Shown: positions 40,327 to 53,824 of the stretch, piece by piece
Position numbering within the stretch: the stretch's first letter is position 1
Layout of the letters: every line of letters begins with the position of its first letter
NCBI RefSeq assembly: GCF_003074135.1
Contig: NZ_PPDK01000003.1
Span: 62,001-126,000, forward strand
DNA length: 64,000 nucleotides
Origin: Euzebya tangerina
GTDB taxonomy: Bacteria > Actinomycetota > Nitriliruptoria > Euzebyales > Euzebyaceae
Direction of reading: 5' to 3'
Position numbers and translations under genes: made by a program
The notes under the pieces: model-generated
Databases searched by the model: none
Told to the model about the DNA's origin: nothing
Seen by the model: the letters and a program-made list of their open reading frames with translations, nothing else

Positions 40327-41712
40327 TCAGAGCCGGCCCGCCGACTTCAGGTCCAGGTAGGTGTCGATCAGCCTGACCGGGAGGAGGTCCGGGGTGGCGT
40401 CGACCACCTGGGCGCCGACCTTGCCCAGCAGACGGGCACTGCGACGCCGGTCGGCCTCGGACCGCAGCGCCGCCGCCATCCGATAGGCCCCGGCAGGGTC
40501 CGTCGGCGCGGCTCCGGCCCACTGCCGCACCGTCGGGTCCGCCGGAGACGCCACCAGCACCAGGTGGCGCTGTGACAGCAGCGGGACGGCCGGCGCGAGG
40601 GACTCGGCCACGGGCGCCGCAGCGAGATCGGTGAGGACCACCACCAACGCCCGTCGCTGGTTGCGCACCAGTGCCTCCACGAACGCCGCGCGGTAGTCCG
40701 GCTCGACCAGGTCGACCTGCACATCGGCCAGGGTCTGCACGATCCGGGTCATCTGGGCTGTCCCGGTGCGCGCCGGCACGCTCGCGCCCACACCACCCGA
40801 GAAGGTGACCAACCCGACCCGGTCGCCCATCCCCGTCGCCACCCGGGTGAGGGCCATCGCGGCGTCCATCGCGTGCTCCAGCCGCGGCGCGACACCCTCC
40901 CGGACCTCATCGACATCGGCCACCTCCTCGCGTCCCATCCGCCCCGCCATCGTCCGGCCCGAATCGAGGAGGATCAGGATGCGTTGGTTCCGCTCCGCCC
41001 GATAGGTCCGCACGATCGGCTTCAGCGCCCGAGCGGTCGCCGCCCAGTCGATCCGACGGCTCTCGTCATCCGGGGTGTACTCCCGCAGCGACTCGAAGTC
41101 CGTTCCCTGCCCACGGAGCCGGATCGTCCGCAGCCCCTCGGCCTCTCGCAACGCGTTGCGCAGGGCGAGTTCGGCGTCGTCGCGACTGGGAAAGGCGGGG
41201 TGGACCCGAACCGTGTCGCGGACGTCGACGTCGGCCTGCCGCATCATCAGCCTCAGCGGCCCGTGGACCCGCAGCGTGATCGCCCCGAGGGCGATCGTCC
41301 CCCGGCGCGCCGGGGTCACCGTGCGATCGGCGAACCGTCGGCCCCGCGCCGGGAGATCCAGGCGCGCTCGGCGGTCACCGATGCGGAGGGAGTCCGGCAC
41401 GGCATCGGCCAGGTCGACCCGCAGCCGACGCCCGATCGGGTTCTGCAGCGTCCAGCGGTAGGCCGCCCCCTCCTCCATCCGCAGGACCGCGTCGACCTCG
41501 CGCGCAACGCCGACACGCCCGGGCGAGGGCGCCAGGACCCAGTCGACGACGGCGGCGACGACGATCAGCAGGTTGAGGACCACGAACACCGTGGTGCTGC
41601 CGGTGTTGAACGGGAGCAGCACGACGGCGACCGCCAGCAGCAGGGCTGCCACCCGCCAGGTCGGGACCGGCCATGACCGGCTCGTGGGCCGGAGGGGGAC
41701 GCCGTCGGACAT
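40327..41712 (-). CDS. DUF58 membrane protein
   Basis: It has 461 residues. Two membrane helices near the N-terminus (VAALLLAVAVVLLPF, VFVVLNLLIVVAAVVDWVL) precede an Ig-like region, the DUF58 signature LRGQGTDFESLREYTPDDESRRIDW and a VWA-like fold (ILILLDSGRTM). Partner of the MoxR ATPase encoded just upstream, by family knowledge. It starts 17 bases after moxR. The metal-site motif is DSGRT rather than DxSxS. Confidence 0.9.
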   Translation of the reverse strand: MSDGVPLRPTSRSWPVPTWRVAALLLAVAVVLLPFNTGSTTVFVVLNLLIVVAAVVDWVLAPSPGRVGVAREVDAVLRMEEGAAYRWTLQNPIGRRLRVDLADAVPDSLRIGDRRARLDLPARGRRFADRTVTPARRGTIALGAITLRVHGPLRLMMRQADVDVRDTVRVHPAFPSRDDAELALRNALREAEGLRTIRLRGQGTDFESLREYTPDDESRRIDWAATARALKPIVRTYRAERNQRILILLDSGRTMAGRMGREEVADVDEVREGVAPRLEHAMDAAMALTRVATGMGDRVGLVTFSGGVGASVPARTGTAQMTRIVQTLADVQVDLVEPDYRAAFVEALVRNQRRALVVVLTDLAAAPVAESLAPAVPLLSQRHLVLVASPADPTVRQWAGAAPTDPAGAYRMAAALRSEADRRRSARLLGKVGAQVVDATPDLLPVRLIDTYLDLKSAGRL

Positions 41713-41729
41713 CGAGGTCGGCAGAGCGG

Positions 41730-42767
41730 CTACCGAGGCACCGGCACCGCGGTCAGGATGCCCTGCAGCACCGTGTCGGCGGTTCCACCCTCGAGCTCGA
41801 CGTCGGGCCTGACCTGCACGCGGTGTCGCAGGCTGGGCAGCGCCATCGCCTTGACGTCGTCCGGGGTCACGTAGCCACGCCCCGACAGCCATGCCCACGC
41901 CTTGGCGGCCTTCAGCAGCATCGTCGACCCACGTGGGCTGACCCCCAACGTCAGCGACGGCGACTGTCGGCTGGCGGCGGCCAACGCGACCACGTAGCCG
42001 AGGACCGCCGGGTCGGTCCGAAGGCCGCTGATCTGCGCCCGAGCGGCCTGGAGTTCCGCGGCTCCTGCGACGGCGCGCACGCCACTCCCGGTGACGTCGT
42101 GGGGGTTCATGCCGCTGTCGTGACGGGCCAGCACCGTCTGCTCCTCCTGCGCGGAGGGGTAGCCGACGATCAGCTTGAGGAGGAACCGGTCCAGCTGAGC
42201 CTCAGGGAGCGGGTAGGTGCCCTCGTACTCGACCGGGTTCTGGGTGGCGACCACGAGGAAGGGCTCCGGGAGCGGTCGTGGTGTCCCCTCGACCGTGACC
42301 CGCCGCTCCTCCATGGCCTCCAGCAGCGCAGCCTGGGTCCGCGGTGGCGTCCGGTTGATCTCGTCCGCCAACAGCAGGTTGGTGAACACCGGTCCCTGGC
42401 GAAATCGGAAGGCGCCCTGGAGGGTGCTCGCCTCCGCGTCGTAGACGCTCTGCCCCAGGACGTCCGACGGCATCAGGTCAGGCGTGAACTGCACCCGCGC
42501 GGTGTCGAGGTCCAGGGCAGCGGCCATGGCGGACACCATCAGGGTCTTGGCCGTGCCAGGAACACCCTCCAGCAGGACGTGACCGCCGACGAGCAGCGCG
42601 GTGATCAGGCCGGTCAGCGCTCCCTCCTGCCCGACGACGACCTTCGCGACCTCGTCGCGCACGGCGATGATCGCCGCTCGGGGGTCGGTCTCGCCGTCCG
42701 GCGACGAGCCCGGGGCGGGCGGCGTCGCGGCGGGGGCGGGCGGCTGATCGGCTGGCAGGTTGCTCAC
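41730..42767 (-). CDS. MoxR-family AAA ATPase
   Basis: It has 345 residues with a Pro/Ala-rich first 25 residues. Walker A is LLEGVPGTAKTLMV, Walker B is NLLLADEINRTPP, and ATQNPVEYEGTYPLPEAQLDRF is the sensor 1 region. MoxR proteins act as chaperones for VWA/DUF58 partners. The GTG start overlaps the DUF4350 stop (GTGA). Confidence 0.94.
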   Translation of the reverse strand: MSNLPADQPPAPAATPPAPGSSPDGETDPRAAIIAVRDEVAKVVVGQEGALTGLITALLVGGHVLLEGVPGTAKTLMVSAMAAALDLDTARVQFTPDLMPSDVLGQSVYDAEASTLQGAFRFRQGPVFTNLLLADEINRTPPRTQAALLEAMEERRVTVEGTPRPLPEPFLVVATQNPVEYEGTYPLPEAQLDRFLLKLIVGYPSAQEEQTVLARHDSGMNPHDVTGSGVRAVAGAAELQAARAQISGLRTDPAVLGYVVALAAASRQSPSLTLGVSPRGSTMLLKAAKAWAWLSGRGYVTPDDVKAMALPSLRHRVQVRPDVELEGGTADTVLQGILTAVPVPR

Positions 42768-44068
42768 GTCGGTCTCGCTTGGTCGAGGGGATCGTCGGGA
42801 TCGGATGGCGGGGTACCAGCGGGCGGTGGGCCCAGCGGTGTGACGCGCTGGGTGATGCGCGCCACCGTGTGCCCCGCCAGGTTGGCGTACCGGACGAGGC
42901 CGGCATCGTCGTAGGGCAGGGGGTCCACCAGCAGGGCCCGCAGCACCTGCGGTGAGATGTCCGTGCGGTCGGCCACCACGGCCACGAAGGTCTCAGCGTC
43001 TGCCTGGCCGCTGATGCCGAGCCGTCGGGTCATGTCGCGGTGGACGCGGGCTCGGATGATGGCGGCGGCCTCGGGGGCCAGCTCCGCGGTGGACAGGAGG
43101 TTGCCGACCGCAACGGTGGTCTCGGACGCCTCGATGCGGACCGGCTGCTCCTCGGCGACCGGACGGCCGAACCGGCGGGCGCGCCACCACACCAGCGCCA
43201 CCCAGGCGATGGGGATCTGCCACAGCGCCAGCCCGACCTGATCGGGCAGCAGGTCGCCCAGCGACTCCCCCGGAAGGCCCTCGCCGTCTGGTTCGATGAC
43301 GTGGAGCCCCGCAGCGCTGTCCGGTGTCAGCAGGTTCACGAGGAGGACCGCGGTGTCCTCGGTGCCCAGCAGGCTGTTGGTCAGCGTTGCCTGACCCCCG
43401 AGCACGATCCGCTCTCCCTCGCCAGCCGGCACCCGGATCATGAAGAAGCCGTCGTTGCGCGGGAAGCACCCGGTTGCGCCATCGGGCAGGTCGAAGACGA
43501 GTGCTCCCGAGACAGCAACGCGCTCGACACCGGTCACGAAGGGGTCGTCGCAGGCCGGCTCGATCGTCGGCTCGGTGAAGGCGATGCTGGTCTGTCCCAC
43601 GACGTCGGGGCCGAGCTCGCTGAGCGGGTCGGCCAGGATCAGTCGGCCACCACGCTGCACCCACTCCTCCACCTCACTCCGCTGCTGCTCGCCCAGATCG
43701 TCACGGATGAGCAACGCCACGCCGTCGCTCTCCCGGGGTGCACCACCAGCGATCCGTGCGTCAACGCCCAACTCCTCGAGGACGTCGATGATCCCGCGGA
43801 CCCCACCGGGCTCCGTCGATCTCGGATCAAGCGGCATTCCGGTCTGGCTGCGCGGACCGATCAAGATGATCACGACCAGCAGGACGACCGCGCCGATGAG
43901 GTAGCGGCGCCAGGTCCGGTAGCGGGCTGCTCGCTGGCCTCCGATGTCGTCCCGACGGTATCGAGCCGGTCGTGAGGCTGGTGCGTCTGCTGCTGCCGGG
44001 GTCGAACCAGCGGGGGCCGAGGTCGTGCCGGCGGTTTCCGACGCAGACGAGACGCCCGTCGCGCTCAC
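42764..44068 (-). CDS. DUF4350 membrane protein
   Basis: It has 434 residues. One helix (YLIGAVVLLVVIILIG) precedes a glutamine-amidotransferase-like extracellular domain (DPRSTEPGGVRGIIDVLEEL, ALLIRDDLGEQQRSEVEEWV, GGRLILADPLSELG). A second helix (GLALWQIPIAWVALVWW) is followed by a cytoplasmic tail. The first 40 residues are Ser/Ala/Thr-rich. It overlaps both neighbours by four bases. Confidence 0.88.
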   Translation of the reverse strand: MSATGVSSASETAGTTSAPAGSTPAAADAPASRPARYRRDDIGGQRAARYRTWRRYLIGAVVLLVVIILIGPRSQTGMPLDPRSTEPGGVRGIIDVLEELGVDARIAGGAPRESDGVALLIRDDLGEQQRSEVEEWVQRGGRLILADPLSELGPDVVGQTSIAFTEPTIEPACDDPFVTGVERVAVSGALVFDLPDGATGCFPRNDGFFMIRVPAGEGERIVLGGQATLTNSLLGTEDTAVLLVNLLTPDSAAGLHVIEPDGEGLPGESLGDLLPDQVGLALWQIPIAWVALVWWRARRFGRPVAEEQPVRIEASETTVAVGNLLSTAELAPEAAAIIRARVHRDMTRRLGISGQADAETFVAVVADRTDISPQVLRALLVDPLPYDDAGLVRYANLAGHTVARITQRVTPLGPPPAGTPPSDPDDPLDQARPT

Positions 44069-44739
44069 GCCCCCACCCCACTGGTCGTTCGTGATCCCCG
44101 ACGGCTGGGGATGTGCCCGGCGACGTCAGCCTGATGCTGCTTGGCCTGCTCCAGGCCTGCCCGATCGACGCGGCCGCCGCCGTACCACACATCCTCGAAC
44201 TGGTCGGTGAAGGCATCGAAGGCCGGCGCCGCCGCGGGCAGGGCGGATCGTGTTGCGGCCCGGTACTCCCCGGTCGTGCGGCCGGGCACCTCGTCGACCA
44301 GGTCGGCGGCGGCCAGTCGTGCCAGGGTCTCCCGATATCGACAGCGCATGGCCTGGCGGAGATCACCCTCGTTCTCGTAGCGGACCGCTTCGTCGGCCCA
44401 GGAGGCTGCGGGCCGGCCGACGGGCCCCTCCACCACGGTCTGGATTGTCTCGGACCGGCGGAAGCGCCGCAGGAAGAGGATCAGGAGCACGACCAGTGCG
44501 ATCACCAGCAGGGTCAGGCCGACGGCGGCGACGACGGAGTTGAACCCGCCGGTCCCGTCGACCCGCAGCAGCAGTCGACCGAGCTGCTCGAAGAACGACT
44601 CCAGGACCCGCCCGAGGAAGGTGCTGTCGTCCGCCGCCCGGTAGTCGGCCCGAGCCAGCACCTCTTCTGTGACCTGCCTGATCTCCTCCGGCGTGGCCAG
44701 ACGGTCCGACGGTCCGGACTGAGCAAGGGTGATGCGCAT
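44065..44739 (-). CDS. DUF4129 membrane protein
   Basis: It has 224 residues. One membrane helix (VGLTLLVIALVVLLILFL, about 77-94) lies before a cytoplasmic region with the DUF4129 pattern (RRYRETLARLAA-type: AMRCRYRETLARLAAADLVDE, RTTGEYRAAT, FEDVWYGGGRVD). It starts with the TGATG junction to the gene upstream and ends in GTGA to the gene downstream. Confidence 0.88.
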   Translation of the reverse strand: MRITLAQSGPSDRLATPEEIRQVTEEVLARADYRAADDSTFLGRVLESFFEQLGRLLLRVDGTGGFNSVVAAVGLTLLVIALVVLLILFLRRFRRSETIQTVVEGPVGRPAASWADEAVRYENEGDLRQAMRCRYRETLARLAAADLVDEVPGRTTGEYRAATRSALPAAAPAFDAFTDQFEDVWYGGGRVDRAGLEQAKQHQADVAGHIPSRRGSRTTSGVGA

Positions 44740-45656
44740 CAGACTCGCGCGGCCAGACGCCCGATGAGCACGTCGAAGTCCAGTCCCTCCTGCCGGACCC
44801 GCAGGTCCTGGTGGAGCAGGACCATCGCCGCCGCGGTCAACGGTCCCTGGATCAGCAGGCTGAGCACGTTGGACAGGCCCACCAGGACCCACGCGAACCC
44901 GAGACCCGAGGCGACGGCGAAGAGGCTGGCCACACCGGCCAGCAGTCCCGCGATCAGGTTGAAGACGAAGCCCCCCAGGAGGATCAGGCCCACCACCCGC
45001 CAGTAGCCCCGACGAGCCAGTCGGACCGCGTGGCTGATGGCCTCGGTGGCCGGGCGGTCCTCCAGCATCAGTGCCGGTGTGACCGTGGCGATGAAGGGCG
45101 TCAGAACCACCGCCCAGACGAACCCGACCACCACCAGCAGGGCCACGAGCGCGAAGCTGCCGGTGGCCGCGGCCAGTCCGGCCAGCAGGAGCGGCCCGAA
45201 GCGGATCAGCCCCAGTCCGATGTAGGCACCGATGAGGACGCCGCTGCGGCGAGCGGTTGCCCGGACGAGTTGCTGTCCGCTGAGCGGGGCCCCGGCCGCC
45301 CCGCGACCGGCGATCAGCGTCAGCGCGCCGAAGAGCACCGGCGTGACCAGCACCTGAGTGGCCAGCGACGTCAGCAGGGAGGCCACCTCGCCCTCGCCGG
45401 TGAACAACCCGGTCGCGACGCCCGGCGCCTGCAGGGCCGCTCCGAGCTGTTGGATGGCGTCCCGTTGGAAGAAGGCCGCGAGCAGCTGCAGCGGGACCAT
45501 GATCAGCAGCACGGTCGCCGCGATCAGTCGCTTGTTGGCGCGGCAGACGGAGAAGGCGCCGTCGATCATGTCGATGACGCTCAGCGGCCGCAGCTCGACC
45601 GTGCCCCGGTGCAGGTCGTACGCCGTCAGCGACGGCGGCGGGGAGATCGCACTCAT
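44739..45656 (-). CDS. Multi-pass membrane protein of the DUF58/MoxR cluster
   Basis: It has 305 residues and about six hydrophobic segments, including LIAATVLLIMVPLQLLAAFF, VLVTPVLFGALTLIAG, FALVALLVVVGFVWAVVL and VVGLILLGGFVFNLIAGLL. The start LRPLSVIDMIDGAFSVCRAN resembles the glycerophosphoryl diester phosphodiesterase membrane-domain group common in these clusters. It overlaps the DUF4129 gene by one base. Confidence 0.78.
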   Translation of the reverse strand: MSAISPPPSLTAYDLHRGTVELRPLSVIDMIDGAFSVCRANKRLIAATVLLIMVPLQLLAAFFQRDAIQQLGAALQAPGVATGLFTGEGEVASLLTSLATQVLVTPVLFGALTLIAGRGAAGAPLSGQQLVRATARRSGVLIGAYIGLGLIRFGPLLLAGLAAATGSFALVALLVVVGFVWAVVLTPFIATVTPALMLEDRPATEAISHAVRLARRGYWRVVGLILLGGFVFNLIAGLLAGVASLFAVASGLGFAWVLVGLSNVLSLLIQGPLTAAAMVLLHQDLRVRQEGLDFDVLIGRLAARV

Positions 45657-45665
45657 CGCGCGCCC

Positions 45666-45992
45666 TCAGTCATCGAGCACCGACCGAGGGGCATCGTCGT
45701 GGAGAGCCGCCGCTGCTCTGGCCGCCGCCAGGTCGGCCGCCGAGGCTGCCGTGACCGGCTGCTGGCCGTTCATGGTGACCAGGCTCGCGATCTGTCGCAG
45801 GTGGTGGTCGATCCAGCGCGGGTCGTAGCCGGCGACGACCAGCGGAGCGTCGTGGCGTTGGATGTCCGCAGCGGAGAGTGGTGAGACCAGTCGGCGAGGC
45901 CGGGACACCGGCTCGAGCGGTGTCGGGTCGGCGTACAGGGCCCAGAGGACCACCGCCCCCAGCGCAACGGATACCAAGACGATGGGAATCAT
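45666..45992 (-). CDS. Small N-terminally anchored hypothetical protein
   Basis: It has 108 residues; the first 20 (MIPIVLVSVALGAVVLWALY) form one membrane anchor and the rest is polar. It lies nine bases upstream of the 44739 gene, so it is probably the first gene of the DUF4350-DUF58 operon. A TACTGT box is 14 bases before the ATG. No family recognised. Confidence 0.6.
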   Translation of the reverse strand: MIPIVLVSVALGAVVLWALYADPTPLEPVSRPRRLVSPLSAADIQRHDAPLVVAGYDPRWIDHHLRQIASLVTMNGQQPVTAASAADLAAARAAAALHDDAPRSVLDD

Positions 45993-46026
45993 AAGTCTCG
46001 ACAGGCACAGTAGCGCTGTGCGACCC

Positions 46027-46887
46027 ATGAGCCTGCGCAACCGGACCTTCGACTTCGACCGTGAGGTCGCCGTGATGGCCATCGTCAACCGCACGCCCGA
46101 CTCCTTCTACGATCAGGGCGCCACGTTCGCGCTGGAGAGCGCAGTCGCCCATGCCCTGGACCATGTCGCCGACGGTGCGGACATCCTCGATGTCGGAGGG
46201 GTCAAGGCCGGACCCGGCGAGGAGGTGACCGCGCAAGAGGAGTTGGACCGCATCATCCCCTTCGTGGAGCGGTTCCGGGACCGCTCCGACGCGGTCCTGT
46301 CGATCGACACCTTCCGGCCGTCGGTGGCCGACGCCGCGCTGAGGGCCGGTGCCGACATCATCAACGACACCTCCGGCCTGGCCGATCCGGATCTCGCCCC
46401 CACGGTCGCGCGGTTTCGCGATGCGGGCCTGGTGCTGATGCACTCCGGTGGCCAGATCCGGACGCGCCCCTACCGCAACCACTACGTCCCAGACGCCACG
46501 ACGGCGATCGTGGCTGACCTGTCGGGGCTGGTTGAGCAGGCCGTGGCCGCCGGTGTCGACGCCTCCAAGCTGATCGTCGACCCGGGCCACGACTTCCGGA
46601 AGAACACCCTGCACTCGCTGGAGATCACCCGTCGCCTGGGTGAGCTGTCCGCGTTGGGTCACCCGGTGCTGGTGGCCCTGTCGAACAAGGACTTCATCGG
46701 CGAGTCGCTGGACCTCGACCTGCCCGATCGGGTCGACGCGTCGATCGGTGCGGCCGTGACCTCGGTCATGCTGGGGGCCCGTCTGGTCCGGGTGCACGAG
46801 ACCCTGGCGACCAAGCGGGCGGTGATGATGGCCGAGGTGATCATGGGCTGGCGGGAGCCAGCGAGGGCCTGGCGCGGGATGGCCTGA
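46027..46887 (+). CDS. Dihydropteroate-synthase-like protein (FolP2 type)
   Basis: It has 286 residues and a TIM barrel. VMAIVNRTPDSFYDQGATF, ADILDVGGVKAGPGEEVT, SIDTFRP, GADIINDTSG and DPGHDFRKNT fit the folate-enzyme family. The VGGVKAGPG form and the short C-terminus resemble mycobacterial FolP2, which is reported to lack dihydropteroate synthase activity. Other folate genes are not adjacent, which agrees. A GTG at 46018 could also start it. Confidence 0.85.
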   Translation: MSLRNRTFDFDREVAVMAIVNRTPDSFYDQGATFALESAVAHALDHVADGADILDVGGVKAGPGEEVTAQEELDRIIPFVERFRDRSDAVLSIDTFRPSVADAALRAGADIINDTSGLADPDLAPTVARFRDAGLVLMHSGGQIRTRPYRNHYVPDATTAIVADLSGLVEQAVAAGVDASKLIVDPGHDFRKNTLHSLEITRRLGELSALGHPVLVALSNKDFIGESLDLDLPDRVDASIGAAVTSVMLGARLVRVHETLATKRAVMMAEVIMGWREPARAWRGMA

Positions 46888-46894
46888 GCGCCGT

Positions 46895-47665
46895 TCAGAC
46901 GCCCTTGATGTCCCCGCCGTCGATGGGGAACACCACGCCGTTGACGAACGAGGCCTTCTCGCTGGCCAGGAACGTGGCGGCGGCGGCGAACTCCTCCGGC
47001 AACCCGACCCTCCCGAGTGGGATGTCGGCAGCCATCTCGGCCAGACCGGCTTCCACGTCGTCACCTGCCATCGACTCGAGCCGTCCGGTGCGAGTCGAGC
47101 CGGGGGCCAGCACGTTCACCGTGATCTGACCGGTCGTCCCGGCGGTGCGCCACTGGCTGTCGAGGTCCGCGATGAGGGACTTGGCGTACCCGACGACACC
47201 GAGGCGGGCGACGTTGGACAGCGCCAGGCCGGGCAGGGGCTGCTTGACGGTCTTGGAGGTCACGAACAGCACCCGTCCCCAGCCGGCAGCCTGCAGGTGA
47301 GGCAGGGCCGCCTGGGTCAGGTTGATCTGGCTGAGCAGCGAGAGCTCGACGGCGTCACGGTAGCCCTGCAGGTCGAACGCGGTGGCCATGCCGGGCGGCG
47401 GTCCGCCGGCGTTGGCGACGAGGACGTGGAGGGCACCGTGCCGCTCGGCGACGCCGTCGATCCAGGCCTGGGCCGCCGCCTCATCGGTGACGTCACAGAC
47501 CTGGGCGTCGAATTCCTCGCTTGCTGCGGCGTCCACCCGCTGCTCGTCGCGGCCGCACACGGCCACGGTGGCACCCTCCGCCTTCATGGCGCGTGCGGTC
47601 GCCTGCCCCAGGCCGGAGGTCCCCCCGGCGATTGCCACCACCTTGTCGCGCAGTCCCAGATCCAT
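46895..47665 (-). CDS. SDR-family protein with an altered catalytic Tyr-Lys pair
   Basis: It has 256 residues. The cofactor loop is AGGTSGLGQATA and the NAG motif is ANAGGPPPG. The catalytic Ser is in VTSKTVKQPLP, but the YxxxK positions read LSNVAR. This matches an SDR subfamily with LSN-x-x-R at that place, so the protein may not be a standard dehydrogenase. It converges on the FolP2-like gene with seven bases between. Confidence 0.85.
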   Translation of the reverse strand: MDLGLRDKVVAIAGGTSGLGQATARAMKAEGATVAVCGRDEQRVDAAASEEFDAQVCDVTDEAAAQAWIDGVAERHGALHVLVANAGGPPPGMATAFDLQGYRDAVELSLLSQINLTQAALPHLQAAGWGRVLFVTSKTVKQPLPGLALSNVARLGVVGYAKSLIADLDSQWRTAGTTGQITVNVLAPGSTRTGRLESMAGDDVEAGLAEMAADIPLGRVGLPEEFAAAATFLASEKASFVNGVVFPIDGGDIKGV

Positions 47666-47673
47666 GGCAGCGG

Positions 47674-47679
47674 ACCCTA
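47674..47679 (-). promoter_or_regulatory. -10 box (TAGGGT) of the SDR gene
   Basis: It lies eight bases before the ATG at 47665. Copy 2 of the 48-bp palindrome lies about 30 bases further upstream, close to where the -35 region would be. Confidence 0.45.
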
Positions 47680-47708
47680 CCGCCCGAGCCGGGACGACCA
47701 CCACTCTG

Positions 47709-47795: not shown

Positions 47796-48482
47796 TCACT
47801 CCCCAGCCGAGCCCGCCGGTGGGGGCACCTCCAGATCCGGATCGCGGTCGAACGGGATCTCCTGACACGGTGGGCCCGAGCGCGCTGTGGTGTCCCCCCC
47901 GACCTGCCAGTCGGCCAGCCCGGCGGTCAGGGCCGCAAAGTCGATGACCAGGTTCCCGTCGGCATCGACCGAGGTGTTGAACCGATCGAGGGAGCGAGGC
48001 GCCGGGCCCTCGACGATCCGGCCGTCCTGATCCCAGCGCGAGCCGGTCGAGTTCGCGCCGAACCAGCCGCTGGTCGAACACCACGAGACGCCCTGCCGGC
48101 CGTACTCCTCCGCCAGCGGGCCATTGGTGTTGAAGGCCACCAACTCCCCCCGAGCGATCGTGAGCCACGCACAGGGGTTCGCGTCGTTGAAGCACACCCG
48201 ACGGGGACGGTCCTCCACCGCAGCCCGGACGTCGTCCACCTGACCCACAACCACGTCGGAGGAGCCGGGGCTGAGCCCGGTGAAGAAGATCAGCGCCGTC
48301 ACCGCCGCAGCCCCGAGCGCCAGGAGCGGAACGGCGACCCGCAGGATCCGCACCTTGGGGTCCTCCTGGCTGATGCCCGGCCCGGTGCTCTCGACCAAGG
48401 TGCGACTCTCGTCGGGGACCGCTGCCCGCTCCGTTGCCCCGAACCGTGGGTCGTGGGCATCCAGCGGACGGTCGTCTGGCAT
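47796..48482 (-). CDS. Membrane-anchored Rieske-like protein lacking cluster ligands
   Basis: It has 228 residues. One membrane anchor lies at about 46-68 (ILRVAVPLLALGAAAVTALIF). The C-terminal domain has the layout of a Rieske fold: RGELVAFNTNGPLAEE, then GSRWDQDGRIVEGPAPRSL, the typical end of the second cluster loop. Where CxCHGS is expected the sequence is ANSTGS (143-148), and the first CxH loop is replaced by EYGRQGVSWC. No [2Fe-2S] ligand set remains. A TAGCAT box seven bases before the ATG sets the start. It is divergent from a ferredoxin gene 46 bases away. Confidence 0.7.
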   Translation of the reverse strand: MPDDRPLDAHDPRFGATERAAVPDESRTLVESTGPGISQEDPKVRILRVAVPLLALGAAAVTALIFFTGLSPGSSDVVVGQVDDVRAAVEDRPRRVCFNDANPCAWLTIARGELVAFNTNGPLAEEYGRQGVSWCSTSGWFGANSTGSRWDQDGRIVEGPAPRSLDRFNTSVDADGNLVIDFAALTAGLADWQVGGDTTARSGPPCQEIPFDRDPDLEVPPPAGSAGE

Positions 48483-48489
48483 GCCCTCG

Positions 48490-48495
48490 ATGCTA
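48490..48495 (-). promoter_or_regulatory. -10 box (TAGCAT) of the Rieske-like gene
   Basis: It lies seven bases before the ATG at 48482. It overlaps the expected -35 area of the divergent ferredoxin promoter. Confidence 0.5.
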
Positions 48496-48515
48496 CGCCG
48501 CCGCTCCGACGTGGA

Positions 48516-48521
48516 TAGCAT
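48516..48521 (+). promoter_or_regulatory. -10 box (TAGCAT) of the ferredoxin-like gene
   Basis: The hexamer is identical to the divergent box and also lies seven bases from its start codon (48529), giving a symmetrical back-to-back arrangement. Confidence 0.5.
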
Positions 48522-48528
48522 CGCTGCC

Positions 48529-48858
48529 ATGGCCAAGCCATCGAAGTTCGTGTTCGTCTGCATCAACGAGCGGGACCCTGAGCACCCCCGCCCGTCGTGC
48601 TTCCCGCTGGGCGGGGCCGACATCTTCAACGCCCTCCGGGAGGAGCAGGGCCGGCGCCGCAACGACGACGTCAAGGTGGTGGCGGCCCTGTGCCTCGAGG
48701 CCTGTCGCGTCGGCCCGGTCGTGGGCGTCTACCCCGACGATGTCTACTACGGCGGGGTCACCGAGGACGACGTCCCCGCCATCATGGACCACCTGGAGGG
48801 GGACGAGCCCGTCCGGTTCCTCAAGATCGGCGACGCCGACTTCCGCTACAAGGGCTAG
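48529..48858 (+). CDS. Thioredoxin-like [2Fe-2S] ferredoxin
   Basis: It has 109 residues. Four cysteines in the 2Fe-2S thioredoxin-like pattern: Cys11 and Cys24 (FVCINERD, PSCFPLGG), then Cys55 and Cys59 (LCLEACR). GVYPDDVYYGGV matches the family strand and turn. Such proteins relate to the NuoE C-terminal domain and shuttle electrons. It is divergent from the Rieske-like gene and overlaps the CWB2 gene stop by four bases on the other strand. Confidence 0.9.
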   Translation: MAKPSKFVFVCINERDPEHPRPSCFPLGGADIFNALREEQGRRRNDDVKVVAALCLEACRVGPVVGVYPDDVYYGGVTEDDVPAIMDHLEGDEPVRFLKIGDADFRYKG

Positions 48859-50435
48859 TCGACGAGGTACGCGGCGAGCTGCCCGGCGACCACGTCCGAC
48901 AGGGCCGCGGTGCCGCCGAACAGCGTGACCTGCTGCAGCGGCTCCTCCCCGGCCAGGACGGTCGTGATGGACGCCTCGAGCACGTCTCGCGGGGATAGCA
49001 GCAGCGGCACTCCCCGCCGCGCGGCGTAGGCCCCACCGGTCAGGCCGTCGGGGAAGTCATCGGCACTGGCCACGGTCACCTCGACCGGTAGCTCACCGCC
49101 TGCACCCTGACGTCGCAGCAGGAGCGCCGACGTCGCCGAGGGCGTCAGATCGCTCACCCGGTCCGCACCCGTAGGCGCCCACCGAGCGGCCACCGGCCCG
49201 ACTGCGACCACCTCGGCGGCGGGATGGGCGTCGAGGTAGGCCTGGACCACTCCGGGGATGCCGGCTCCGTCCACCAGGACTGCGACGCCATCGGTGGGTG
49301 GTGCGGCGGCGCCCGCCAGCAGCGCGTCGGGGTAGTTGCCACCGAAGGCCAGCCAGATCGTGCTCGGCTCCGAGGTGGACGCCTCGGCCACCGCGACGGA
49401 GGTGGAGAAGCGGCTGTCCCCAGCCACGCGGGTCACCGCATGCCCGTCCTCTCGGAGGATCTCCACGACCGTGTCCGAGAGCGCCGCGGTTCCGCCGAGC
49501 AGCGTGACCGATCCCGGGCCTCCCAGGGCCCGCAGCGCCTCGGCACGGGTGCCGGCGGGGACGTCGTCGGCGAAGCTCAGCAGGATGGGCGCGTTGCGCG
49601 CGACAGCCAACGGCGCGGCCACCAGCGCATCGGGATAGTTGTCCGCCAGGGCGATGAGGACCCCATCGGCCTGCCCGTCGGCGAAGGAGGCCTGGGAGGT
49701 TGCGACGGCCGTCTCGATACGGGTCGGCCCGGCCAGCCTGGTCACCCGGTCGGCACCCTCCGGTGCGACCAGTGGGATGTCCACGAACCCCCCATCGCCG
49801 GGGACATCGTCGATCACGAGCCCGTCCGGGCCGGCCGCTATGCCATAGGCCATCCGCCCGAGGGCCCGCAGCACCTCCGGGGCGTTCAGGCAGGCCGTCG
49901 GCACCTGCGCCGCGTACACCCCGTCGTCGAACGACGCCGACCCCTCACAGATCAACGTCGGATCAGCCCGACCCTCGAGCACAAGGTAGCGGAGTTCGTC
50001 CGTCGACCCTTGCGTGCTCAGCTGGATCTCGCGCGGCTGGCCGGCCACGCTGTCGTAGAGGACCCCGATGCTGGCTCCGAAGTCGTCCCAGGTCGGGTCG
50101 AGGGCGGGATCGGTGCCAGCCGGGACGGTGACTGCGACGGCCAGTCCATCGGGCCCGTAGTCGAGGCAGAACTCGGTCACGTCGGCCTCGGGAACGACCT
50201 CGCGGCGGCCGTCGCCCCGCACCGTGTCGGCTGGTGGGTCGGCGATGCAGGCAGCCACGGCGTAGGACGGCGGAGCCGCGGCGGGTGGGATGACCGGCGT
50301 CTGCAGACCGGGGGTGAGCTCGAGGCCAGCACTCGCTGCTTGAGCCGAACCGACGCCGATCGCCATGAGCGTCAGGAGCACCGCGAGGACGCCGCGAACC
50401 ACCCGTCTCGCGGCTGGGCGGCGTCGGTCCATCAC
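48855..50435 (-). CDS. Secreted protein with cell-wall-binding repeats (CWB2), copy 1
   Basis: It has 526 residues. A signal peptide (about 34 residues, VLAVLLTLMAIGVGSAQA) and a beta-rich N-terminal half of about 220 residues precede three CWB2 repeats from about 230: RLAGPTRIETAVATSQASF, GGTAALSDTVVEIL and VTRVAGDSRFSTSVAVAEA. The last repeat ends TLFGGTAALSDVVAGQL. CWB2 domains hold proteins on the cell wall. The start is GTG at 50435 or ATG at 50432. It lies 19 bases after its paralog. Confidence 0.92.
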   Translation of the reverse strand: MMDRRRPAARRVVRGVLAVLLTLMAIGVGSAQAASAGLELTPGLQTPVIPPAAAPPSYAVAACIADPPADTVRGDGRREVVPEADVTEFCLDYGPDGLAVAVTVPAGTDPALDPTWDDFGASIGVLYDSVAGQPREIQLSTQGSTDELRYLVLEGRADPTLICEGSASFDDGVYAAQVPTACLNAPEVLRALGRMAYGIAAGPDGLVIDDVPGDGGFVDIPLVAPEGADRVTRLAGPTRIETAVATSQASFADGQADGVLIALADNYPDALVAAPLAVARNAPILLSFADDVPAGTRAEALRALGGPGSVTLLGGTAALSDTVVEILREDGHAVTRVAGDSRFSTSVAVAEASTSEPSTIWLAFGGNYPDALLAGAAAPPTDGVAVLVDGAGIPGVVQAYLDAHPAAEVVAVGPVAARWAPTGADRVSDLTPSATSALLLRRQGAGGELPVEVTVASADDFPDGLTGGAYAARRGVPLLLSPRDVLEASITTVLAGEEPLQQVTLFGGTAALSDVVAGQLAAYLVD

Positions 50436-50454: not shown

Positions 50455-51987
50455 TCACTGCAGGAACGAGCTGGCCTGTCCGGCGACGGTGTCGGAGAGC
50501 GCGGCGTTGCCGCCGAACATGGTGATCGACGGTACCGGCCCGAACTCCGACAGCTCCTGCAGGACCAGGGTCTCCATGGCCGACTCGGGGCTGAGGATCA
50601 GCGGGAGGCCGTTGCGTGCCGCGTAGGCGCCGCCGGCCAAACCATCTGGGAACTCCTCCGAACTCGCCATCGTGATCGCCGAGCCTTCGGGATACAACTG
50701 CAGGAGCAGCGAGGAGAGGGTCGAGGGCGTCGGGCTGAAGGCGGAGGTGTCAGCATCCGGCACGACTTCGTCGGCCACGGTGCCCAGCGCGAAGGTGCGA
50801 GCGTCCGGATTGGCATCCAGGTAGTCCTGCACGACGCTCGGCACCCCGCCCCGGTCGACCAGCACGGCAACACCGCCCAGACCGGGGGCGATCGCACCAG
50901 CCAGCAGCGCCTCCGGGAAGTCCCCGCCGAACACCAGCACGATCGTCTCCGGCGCGGGGTTGGCCTGCCGCGCCACCTCGACGGAGGTGGAGAAGCGACT
51001 GTCCCCGGCTGCTCGGGTCACCGTGTGGCCGTCGGACTCGAGCGTCGTCGCCACCACCTCCTGGAGGGCGGCCGTCCCACCCAGCAGCACCACGTCCCCC
51101 GGCCCGCCCATGGCACGCAGGGCCTCGTCGCGGACGGACTGCGACACGCTGTCGTTCTCGGCGAGCAGCAGCGGCGCGTTGTTCGCCACGGCCAGTGGCG
51201 CACCGACCACCGCATCGGGGAAGTTCCGGGCCAGTGCGATCAGCACGCCATCGGCCTCCCCGTCAGCGAACGTCGCCTGCGAGATGGCATTGGCTGTCTC
51301 GATGCGAGTTGGTCCTTCGAATCGCATGATCCGGTCGCCACCCGCGGGTGTGTCAAGCGGCACGGTCAGCAACACGCCACGGGCGGGGACGAAGTCGTAC
51401 ACCGAGTCCCCGGCCGCCGTCTGGTAGAGCATCTGGGTCAGGATCTCGAGCTCGGCGCCCCCGCCCAGGCAACCGGCCGGGATGTTGGTCACGTACGCGC
51501 TGCTCGCGAAGGTGGCGGGAGCCTCACAGACCAGCTCGGTGGTCCCGTTCCGGTCCGCGAGCACGATCGTGCGGAAGGTGTCGCTGTTCTGCTCGCTCAG
51601 CTGGACCTCGCGCTCCTCGCCGTTGGCCGCCAGGTATCCGAGGGAGATGCTGGTGCGCGTGCTGCGGTCCCACTGCGGATCGACGTTCGGATCGGTGCCG
51701 TCGGGAACGGTGACGGCCAGGTCCAATCCGCCCGCGTTGTAGTCGATGCAGAAGACGGAGATGTCGGCCTGCGGGACAGCCTCGACCGGTCCGCTGAGCC
51801 CACGGGTCGTGTCGCCCTCGGCGTCGGTGAAGCAGCCCTGCACGGCGAAGGAGTCGCTGGCCTGTGACGTGGCCTCCGACACCTGGCCCGCGAGCCGCAA
51901 CTCGAAGCTGTCGGCTCCTGCCGGAGCGGCCAGCAGCGCGGTGATCAGTGCCGTCGCGATCAGCAACGTGAGCGAGCGTGTTCGCAT
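50455..51987 (-). CDS. Secreted protein with cell-wall-binding repeats (CWB2), copy 2
   Basis: It has 510 residues and the same layout as copy 1: signal peptide (LTLLIATALITALLAAPAGA), N-terminal beta-rich half with matching cysteines (VQGCFTDAEGDT, FCIDYNAGG), then three CWB2 repeats (RFEGPTRIETANAISQATF, TRAAGDSRFSTSVEVA, MFGGNAALSDTV). GGGGAA-like GGGGAAC is the Shine-Dalgarno. The two genes form a tandem duplication transcribed together. Confidence 0.92.
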   Translation of the reverse strand: MRTRSLTLLIATALITALLAAPAGADSFELRLAGQVSEATSQASDSFAVQGCFTDAEGDTTRGLSGPVEAVPQADISVFCIDYNAGGLDLAVTVPDGTDPNVDPQWDRSTRTSISLGYLAANGEEREVQLSEQNSDTFRTIVLADRNGTTELVCEAPATFASSAYVTNIPAGCLGGGAELEILTQMLYQTAAGDSVYDFVPARGVLLTVPLDTPAGGDRIMRFEGPTRIETANAISQATFADGEADGVLIALARNFPDAVVGAPLAVANNAPLLLAENDSVSQSVRDEALRAMGGPGDVVLLGGTAALQEVVATTLESDGHTVTRAAGDSRFSTSVEVARQANPAPETIVLVFGGDFPEALLAGAIAPGLGGVAVLVDRGGVPSVVQDYLDANPDARTFALGTVADEVVPDADTSAFSPTPSTLSSLLLQLYPEGSAITMASSEEFPDGLAGGAYAARNGLPLILSPESAMETLVLQELSEFGPVPSITMFGGNAALSDTVAGQASSFLQ

Positions 51988-52093
51988 GAGGGTTCCCCGT
52001 TGGTTCTGGTGCATGGCCTCGGTCGGACCACGGGCCGTACCTTGCCGGACAGATTCCGGCGCGGCAACTTCGGGCGGCATCCGCCCCGGATGA

Positions 52094-53824
52094 TCAGACC
52101 TTGGCGCCTCCCTGGGCCCGAGCCATGAAGGCGTCCAGGACGGCACCGACCTTGCCGGCGGCGGCGTGGCGAGCTGCGGTCGGATCGTTCGACTTGGTGT
52201 GGTGCACCGCCTCGCCGTAGAACTTCAGCTTCGGCTCCGTGCCGCTGGGACGGACCATCACGCGGGTTCCATCCTCCGCGACGTAGCGCAGCAGCGGCGT
52301 GGGAGGCAAGTCGATCGGCTCGACCGTCCCGTCGGCGCTGGTCACCACTCCGGCGTCGTGGTCCCACACCTGGATGACCGGTGACTCCCCGAGCGACGTG
52401 GGCGGGTTGGACCGCAGGCGATCGAGCGCCGCTTGGACCAGCACCTCGCCGTCGTCGCCTTCGAGCATCACCGACCGGCCCTGGGTGACGTGGGCGCCGT
52501 GCCGGATCGTCAGGTCGTCCAGCAGGTCGCCGAGGGTCCTCCCGTCCGCAGCCAGCCGGTCGGCCAGGTCGGCCATCGCCACGATCCCGCTGATGCCATC
52601 CTTGTCGCGGACGAGGTCCCCGACGCACACGCCGAGCGCCTGCTCGTAGGACAGGACCATGATCGCGTCGCGGTCCTCGGCGTCGATCGCGGCGACGGCC
52701 AGCCACTTGAAGCCGGTCAGGGTCTCGGCGTACTCGGCGTCGTGGTGGGCCGCAACCTTGCTGAGGAGGGAGGAGGAGACAACAGTCGTGGCCACGGCCG
52801 GCGTCCGGCCTTGCGTCATGGCCCCGCGCGCGAGGATGTCCTCGGCGAGGAGCACGCCGATCTCGTCGCCGGTCAACATCCGGTACCCACCGGCAGTGCG
52901 GAAGCCCACGGCGATGCGGTCGCCATCGGGGTCGTTGGCGACAATGAGATCGGCCTCCACCTCCTGGGCGAGGGCGATGGAGGCGTCCATCGCACCGGGC
53001 TCCTCGGGGTTGGGGAAGGACACCGTCGGGAAGTCCGGGTCGGGCTCGAACTGCTCGGCCACAGCGTGCACGTCGATGAACCCCGCCTCGTCGAGGGCCC
53101 GCAGGCACATGGCGCCAGCGACGCCGTGCATGGCGCTGTAGACGATCGTGATCCGCCGCTCGGCCGGGCCCCCGACGAGTGCCACGACCTGGCTCAGGTA
53201 CTGCTCCGGGACGTCGGCCGGCACCGTCCAGATGAGGTCGTCATCGGGCTGGGCCAGGGGGACGTCGTTCAGCGACTCGACCGCGTCGATCGCGGCGGAG
53301 ATCTCCTCGTCCAGCGGAGAGACGATCTGCCTACCCCCCGGGCCGAAGACCTTGTACCCGTTGTCGGCTGGAGGGTTGTGGCTGGCGGTGACCATCACAC
53401 CGGCGGCGGCTTCGAGCGTGCGGACCGCGTAGGCAACGAGCGGGGTCGGCACGATGTCGGAGAACTTCCACACGCCAAGCCCCGCGCCGGCCAGGACCAC
53501 CGCGGCGTCGGCGGCGAACGCATCGCTCTTGTGGCGGGCGTCCCGGCCGACGACGACCCCTCTGGCGCCGGCGGCACCGGCGGCCTGGTTCAGTCGGTCC
53601 GCCAGTCCGGCGGTCACCCGCCGGACCAACGCCCGGTTCATCCGGTTGGGGCCGGCGCCCAGCGCGCCTCGGATGCCGGCGGTGCCGAACTCGAGCCGCT
53701 CACCGAAGCGGTCCTCGAGGCCAGCCTCGTCGTCGATGTCCAGGAGGGCCTGCAGTTCCTCGCGGGTCTCGGGGTCCGGGTCCTCGTCCATCCAGGCCAG
53801 AACCTGGGCACGGTCAATCGACAT
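52094..53824 (-). CDS. Phosphoglucomutase/phosphomannomutase (PGM2-like phospho-sugar mutase)
   Basis: It has 576 residues and the four-domain alpha-D-phosphohexomutase fold. The phosphoserine loop is GVMVTASHNPPADNGYKV, the metal loop is ANDPDGDRIAV, the sugar loop is LSYEQALGVCVGD-like (GFKWLAV precedes it) and the phosphate loop is VMVRPSGTEPKLKFY. It interconverts hexose 1- and 6-phosphates. GAGGAG lies ten bases before the ATG. Confidence 0.95.
   Translation of the reverse strand: MSIDRAQVLAWMDEDPDPETREELQALLDIDDEAGLEDRFGERLEFGTAGIRGALGAGPNRMNRALVRRVTAGLADRLNQAAGAAGARGVVVGRDARHKSDAFAADAAVVLAGAGLGVWKFSDIVPTPLVAYAVRTLEAAAGVMVTASHNPPADNGYKVFGPGGRQIVSPLDEEISAAIDAVESLNDVPLAQPDDDLIWTVPADVPEQYLSQVVALVGGPAERRITIVYSAMHGVAGAMCLRALDEAGFIDVHAVAEQFEPDPDFPTVSFPNPEEPGAMDASIALAQEVEADLIVANDPDGDRIAVGFRTAGGYRMLTGDEIGVLLAEDILARGAMTQGRTPAVATTVVSSSLLSKVAAHHDAEYAETLTGFKWLAVAAIDAEDRDAIMVLSYEQALGVCVGDLVRDKDGISGIVAMADLADRLAADGRTLGDLLDDLTIRHGAHVTQGRSVMLEGDDGEVLVQAALDRLRSNPPTSLGESPVIQVWDHDAGVVTSADGTVEPIDLPPTPLLRYVAEDGTRVMVRPSGTEPKLKFYGEAVHHTKSNDPTAARHAAAGKVGAVLDAFMARAQGGAKV

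Follow-up and report, generated by a model that had tools for sequence, protein, structure and literature searches.

The 64,000-nucleotide stretch of Euzebya tangerina DNA analyzed here (the window) encodes a 228-residue membrane protein, P1 (positions 47796–48482, minus strand, ATG start), which is Rieske-like in fold by its alignments and structure model, and which lacks all four ligands of the Rieske cluster. Our confidence in what P1 is, is high; our confidence in what it does is about even at best. The reading that we favor, and that we regard as an even bet, is that P1, a cofactor-free Rieske paralogue, acts outside the cytoplasm as a docking or structural module through its former cluster tip. 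With the cluster lost and the fold under selection, this protein provides a natural experiment that separates the role of the Rieske scaffold from that of the cluster.

Fold, topology and lost ligands

The open reading frame of P1 contains GANSTGSRWDQDGRIVEGPAPRSLDRF. AlphaFold2 was given P1 and nine orthologues from named metagenome-assembled genomes, with no true Rieske protein in the input, and returned a model of moderate confidence (mean pLDDT 73, pTM 0.58). In that model a helix at residues 42–69 is followed by a beta domain of good confidence; the N-terminal tail has low confidence and the C-terminal tail is weak. The top rows of a Foldseek search of the PDB were all Rieske proteins, namely arsenite oxidase small subunits and the Rieske subunits of bc and b6f complexes. 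The best structural matches, found by VIA, were the soluble domains of two Kuenenia proteins, kuste4569 (9rk4; Z 11.3, 2.7 Å over 102 residues, spanning model residues 74–189) and kustd1480 (9rk3; Z 10.8, likewise over 102 residues). Both are deposited as iron-sulfur proteins and are about 20% identical to P1, and kustd1480 has the CPCHGS loop that P1 lacks. An earlier note on this locus had described P1 as a Rieske-like membrane protein, and the single helix and the Rieske matches of the model bear this out; an unrelated fold was not seen.

Sequence profiles point the same way. A profile search of PDB sequences with P1 matched Rieske proteins with E down to 4.8e-8, and hhalign matched P1 to the genome's own QcrA at 98% over 122 columns. 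Pfam yielded no match at E up to 1, the Rieske_2 model included, and a search with 10 aligned members gave nothing useful. Matches in NCBIfam were weak, to PetC/Rieske models over residues 132–180, the best scoring 22.9 bits where the cut-off is 250.

The loss of ligands is complete. At residues 143–148 (48039–48056, minus strand), P1 has ANSTGS where CPCHGS is expected, while the Pro loop of Rieske proteins is kept as GPAPRSL (residues 159–165; 47988–48008, minus strand), both as the earlier note had stated. The note had concluded from the CxCHGS half that no normal cluster could be held, and this conclusion is strengthened by alignment with canonical QcrA: the first ligand loop is lost too, so that CxH and CxxH are both absent. 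The sequence CVHLGC of the genome's own QcrA is replaced in P1 by NTNGPLAEEYGRQGV, and in the alignment a GPLxxEYGRQGV-type sequence takes the place of CxHLGC. The segment spanning this position, residues 116–135 (AFNTNGPLAEEYGRQGVSWC; 48078–48137, minus strand), was placed by alignment with canonical QcrA, with an uncertain register within the loop. The second loop reads ANSTGS, ANATGS, SNATGS or similar in the ligand-less proteins. The non-ligand cysteines of both loops are replaced as well, which removes the inter-loop disulfide. Every readable copy of P1 is without ligands, the orthologue alignment shows no conserved histidine in the domain, and P1 of the window has a single histidine, H10, which belongs to the N-terminal tail. 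Because the ligand motifs are gone and the sole histidine precedes the membrane helix, the composition of P1 makes a Rieske cluster impossible, and electron transfer through such a cluster cannot occur.

P1 has one membrane helix (residues 42–69; 48276–48359, minus strand), which its charge bias predicts to run from inside to outside. Ahead of it lies a predicted cytosolic tail (residues 1–41; 48360–48482, minus strand) with conserved DxxDPRF and RxL...GPG motifs and 9 invariant residues; behind it lies the domain with the Rieske fold (residues 70–189; 47916–48275, minus strand). For most orthologues the charge bias predicts a cytoplasmic tail and an extracytoplasmic domain, and two are balanced, so the domain probably lies outside the membrane. 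Actinobacterial Rieske proteins require Tat for export of the cluster domain (PMC5449189, PMC4383559), and R[RK]xF is present in 74/86 canonical QcrA sequences. By comparison, none of 13 P1 orthologues has a Tat-like RRx[FLVI] motif ahead of the helix, and the twin-arginine RRxF is missing from the tail. The absence of the motif makes Sec insertion, with the domain outside, probable. This parallel absence is consistent with a requirement for Tat that is limited to the folded form with its cofactor loaded.

Within the domain, conservation peaks at the former cluster tip (residues 118–167), which ranks first of 120 circular shifts. Its conservation could have a purely structural cause. We consider docking or structural support at the outer face, exerted through this conserved tip, the most likely and most economical reading. 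The earlier note had suggested that P1 is only a docking partner, and the best surviving form of that idea is docking or structural support with no redox chemistry; the ferredoxin that it named as the mate is set aside below.

P1 and the Rieske protein of the bc complex

It is useful to contrast P1 with QcrA, the Rieske protein of the actinobacterial cytochrome bcc/bc1 complex. The two share the fold, an anchor before the domain, the Pro loop (GPAPRGLDRF in QcrA), and the WC and GPxC cysteine motifs. P1 differs in lacking the cluster ligands, the ligand-loop disulfide, the twin-arginine motif and neighboring cytochrome b and c genes, and it alone has an extra cysteine pair and a conserved C-terminal GPxCxxIPFDR tail. 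Descent from QcrA and not from another Rieske family is suggested by sequence similarity; the tree has long branches. We propose that P1 is a diverged paralogue of the bc-complex Rieske protein, whose QcrA-like ancestor would have lost the four ligands and both cysteines of the ligand-loop disulfide while the fold, anchor and Pro loop were kept. Inserted by Sec with its domain outside the cell membrane, the protein would be stabilized there by two disulfides in place of the cluster, and the former tip would offer a docking or structural surface to a partner that is extracytoplasmic or lies in the membrane; one candidate, a guess that we make from ancestry, is a bc-type complex.

P1 does not stand in for QcrA. 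Elsewhere than P1, the genome of the window encodes a canonical QcrA together with cytochromes c and b. Two P1-bearing genomes (G018 and G027) seemed to lack QcrA at first search, and replacement was considered; searches with PF00355 and for cytochrome b turned up adjacent Rieske and cytochrome b genes in both, and replacement was rejected. Indeed, such a gene pair is present in 6/6 P1-bearing genomes tested (that of the window among them), and P1 is therefore extra to the canonical Rieske protein, not a replacement for it. The presence of these bc-type genes in every P1-bearing genome tested, together with the QcrA-like fold, anchor and Pro loop, speaks for P1 as an assembly factor or decoy that occupies the place of the genuine Rieske subunit. 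Against this, P1 is unlinked to the qcr genes, and most relatives with canonical QcrA do without it, and we consider such a role unlikely.

Ligand-less Rieske-type proteins as a kind are not new, since cluster-free structures exist of NirD, the small subunit of assimilatory nitrite reductase (Rieske_2). Like P1, NirD is a Rieske-type protein that can lack ligands, and in that of B. bataviensis one cysteine and one histidine ligand are reported to be substituted (PMC3475470). NirD is soluble and works with NirB, whereas P1 has a membrane helix and no Rieske_2 match; no nirB-like gene is among its identified neighbors. In the open-access papers searched, a set outside which most subscription journals fall, we found no account of a membrane-anchored, QcrA-like family without ligands. 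We tentatively suggest that P1 represents an undescribed, cluster-free, membrane-tethered Rieske-fold family confined to this order and a few degenerate relatives in the class, with the once electron-carrying tip converted to a protein-binding site; such a protein might, for example, be a dead subunit with a part in regulating or assembling a bc-type complex; we would put the chances of this proposal clearly below even.

The cysteines of P1 allow another interpretation. All four are invariant in 13/13 orthologues. Cys135 (WC; 48078–48080, minus strand) and Cys206 (GPxC; 47865–47867, minus strand) are present in QcrA too, with counterparts in 85/85 canonical sequences scored, and would form an ancestral disulfide. 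Cys97 and Cys104 (VC...PCAW; 48171–48194, minus strand) are absent from the canonical QcrA rows shown, are found in three divergent homologues of P1, and would form a new one. The invariance of all four, which extends to divergent homologues, and the 9 invariant residues of the cytosolic tail could together describe an extracytoplasmic thiol-redox sensor, in which the cysteine pairs are the working center and the signal passes through the tail. We think this improbable. One of the pairs is already present in ordinary QcrA and hence is probably structural, there is no CxxC motif, and the 41-residue tail has no recognizable signaling domain.

The ferredoxin and the surrounding locus

The gene that faces P1 (48529–48858, plus strand) encodes a 109-residue ferredoxin, separated from it by 46 bp (48483–48528) and divergently oriented. 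Its cysteines 11, 24, 55 and 59 form a C-x12-C plus C-x3-C pattern. The distance, divergent orientation and four cysteines given in the earlier note all agree with the sequence. A match to 1f37 (E 4e-19) identifies it as a thioredoxin-like [2Fe-2S] ferredoxin; in length and cysteine spacing it resembles the Aquifex aeolicus ferredoxin and Shethna protein I, a type described in PMC8561814, and for the two closest named families in NCBIfam its scores fall short of the cut-offs. No membrane helix is predicted in it. A scan for a shared divergent promoter gave no sigma-70-type site, a result that is uninformative for DNA this GC-rich.

The earlier note had proposed that P1 and this ferredoxin form an electron-transfer or sensing unit, and had suggested their co-occurrence as a check. 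Proximity gives that idea some appeal: the ferredoxin lies near P1 on the opposite strand in 12/15 P1 loci, and the one P1 genome of 15 that lacks it is 59% complete. Within the order, 14 genomes have both genes, 1 has P1 only, 8 have the ferredoxin only and 7 have neither, a nominal association (Fisher p 0.035, relatedness ignored). The association is not significant across all 41 genomes (p 0.22, relatedness likewise ignored), where 33 have the ferredoxin, 14 with P1 and 19 without it, 1 has P1 only and 7 have neither. In G001 about 10 kb separates P1 from the ferredoxin, compared with 46 to about 650 bp elsewhere, and where a genome carries a divergent ligand-less homologue (family f2), its ferredoxin is on a different contig. 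Finally, the P1 domain and the ferredoxin are predicted on opposite sides of the membrane.

Gene order can account for their proximity. P1 is surrounded by folP, SDR, ferredoxin, CWB2 and phosphomutase genes. Downstream of it, on the same strand, lies an SDR-family oxidoreductase gene (46895–47704, minus strand), which adjoins P1 in the genus Euzebya and in one other P1-bearing relative (L039), followed by a second dihydropteroate synthase-like gene, a folP paralogue (45862–46887, plus strand). In most of the order's P1-lacking genomes examined, the ferredoxin stands next to folP, often following it on the same strand within 37–200 bp. Thus the interval between folP and the ferredoxin either contains P1, sometimes together with the SDR gene, or lacks it, and this difference explains the divergent layout without shared function. 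Synteny extends over the whole block from DUF58 up to the phosphomutase, which continues on both sides in P1-bearing genomes, and the adjacency of P1 and the ferredoxin can therefore be inherited. Presence and absence in the 41 genomes, taken with this synteny, led us to reject pairing as the main reading, and we now hold a functional electron-transfer or sensing pair to be very unlikely. The ferredoxin looks like a more widespread, separately inherited neighbor and is probably not a partner of P1. Its link with P1, which looks like inherited gene order, is a caution against assigning function from neighbors.

None of the conserved neighbors of P1 is respiratory, and cytochrome b and c genes are not found beside it. 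The genome has another dihydropteroate synthase gene (G000:C1:1782342-1783112); two are present in most genomes of the order, and one of the two is often near the ferredoxin. Two tandem cell-wall-binding repeat 2 (CWB2) proteins, encoded at 48855–50435 and 50455–52146 on the minus strand, adjoin the ferredoxin, and a DUF58-MoxR-DUF4350-DUF4129-membrane protein block (40327–45656, minus strand) accompanies the P1/ferredoxin locus throughout the order.

Distribution, selection and relatives

Full-length orthologues of P1 occur in 15/66 genomes of the class, comprising 4/4 of the genus and eleven from another family of the order; the named records are metagenome-assembled genomes of Euzebyaceae, Egibacteraceae, Euzebyales and Nitriliruptorales. 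The relatives are 45–67% identical to P1 over the full length and have the ligand-less sequence in common, and after the last orthologue the score drops sharply, from 175 to 73 bits. No P1 was found in about 270–370 genomes sampled from the rest of the phylum, either when the whole alignment served as query or when its ligand-less half was used alone. This patchy presence means that P1 is dispensable within the order.

Patchiness and ligand loss, together with a copy in G028 that is broken by stops in a draft assembly and was excluded from the alignment, might be taken as signs of a decaying, functionless duplicate, a reading with next to no chance given that full length and 50 invariant columns are kept in 13 orthologues and that it is largely refuted by dN/dS values of 0.055 and 0.157 between close relatives. 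More distant pairs give less reliable values. The close pairs point to purifying selection on a gene that, by these ratios, is not decaying.

In a tree, the ligand-less rows lie to one side of a branch with support 98/99. We do not claim a single origin for these proteins, because long branches meet there and the bootstrap is unsettled. A search with the ligand-less half returned three divergent homologues and two weak ones (G028, in a 613-aa frame, and G055, 297 aa).

The three divergent homologues, proteins of 414–452 aa from another family of the order (L177, L178 and L181), have an N-terminal membrane helix and a C-terminal Rieske-like domain that is ligand-less and has the same four cysteines as P1. 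Two further Rieske-like frames have lost their ligands differently, L182 with EDPLDRS and L202 with EEPAHGS, in which the histidine is retained. The QcrA-like sequence L139 (JAGXST010000102.1) has altered ligand motifs, PHCGC ... GQCHGS, and is either a degenerate Rieske protein or a sequencing error.
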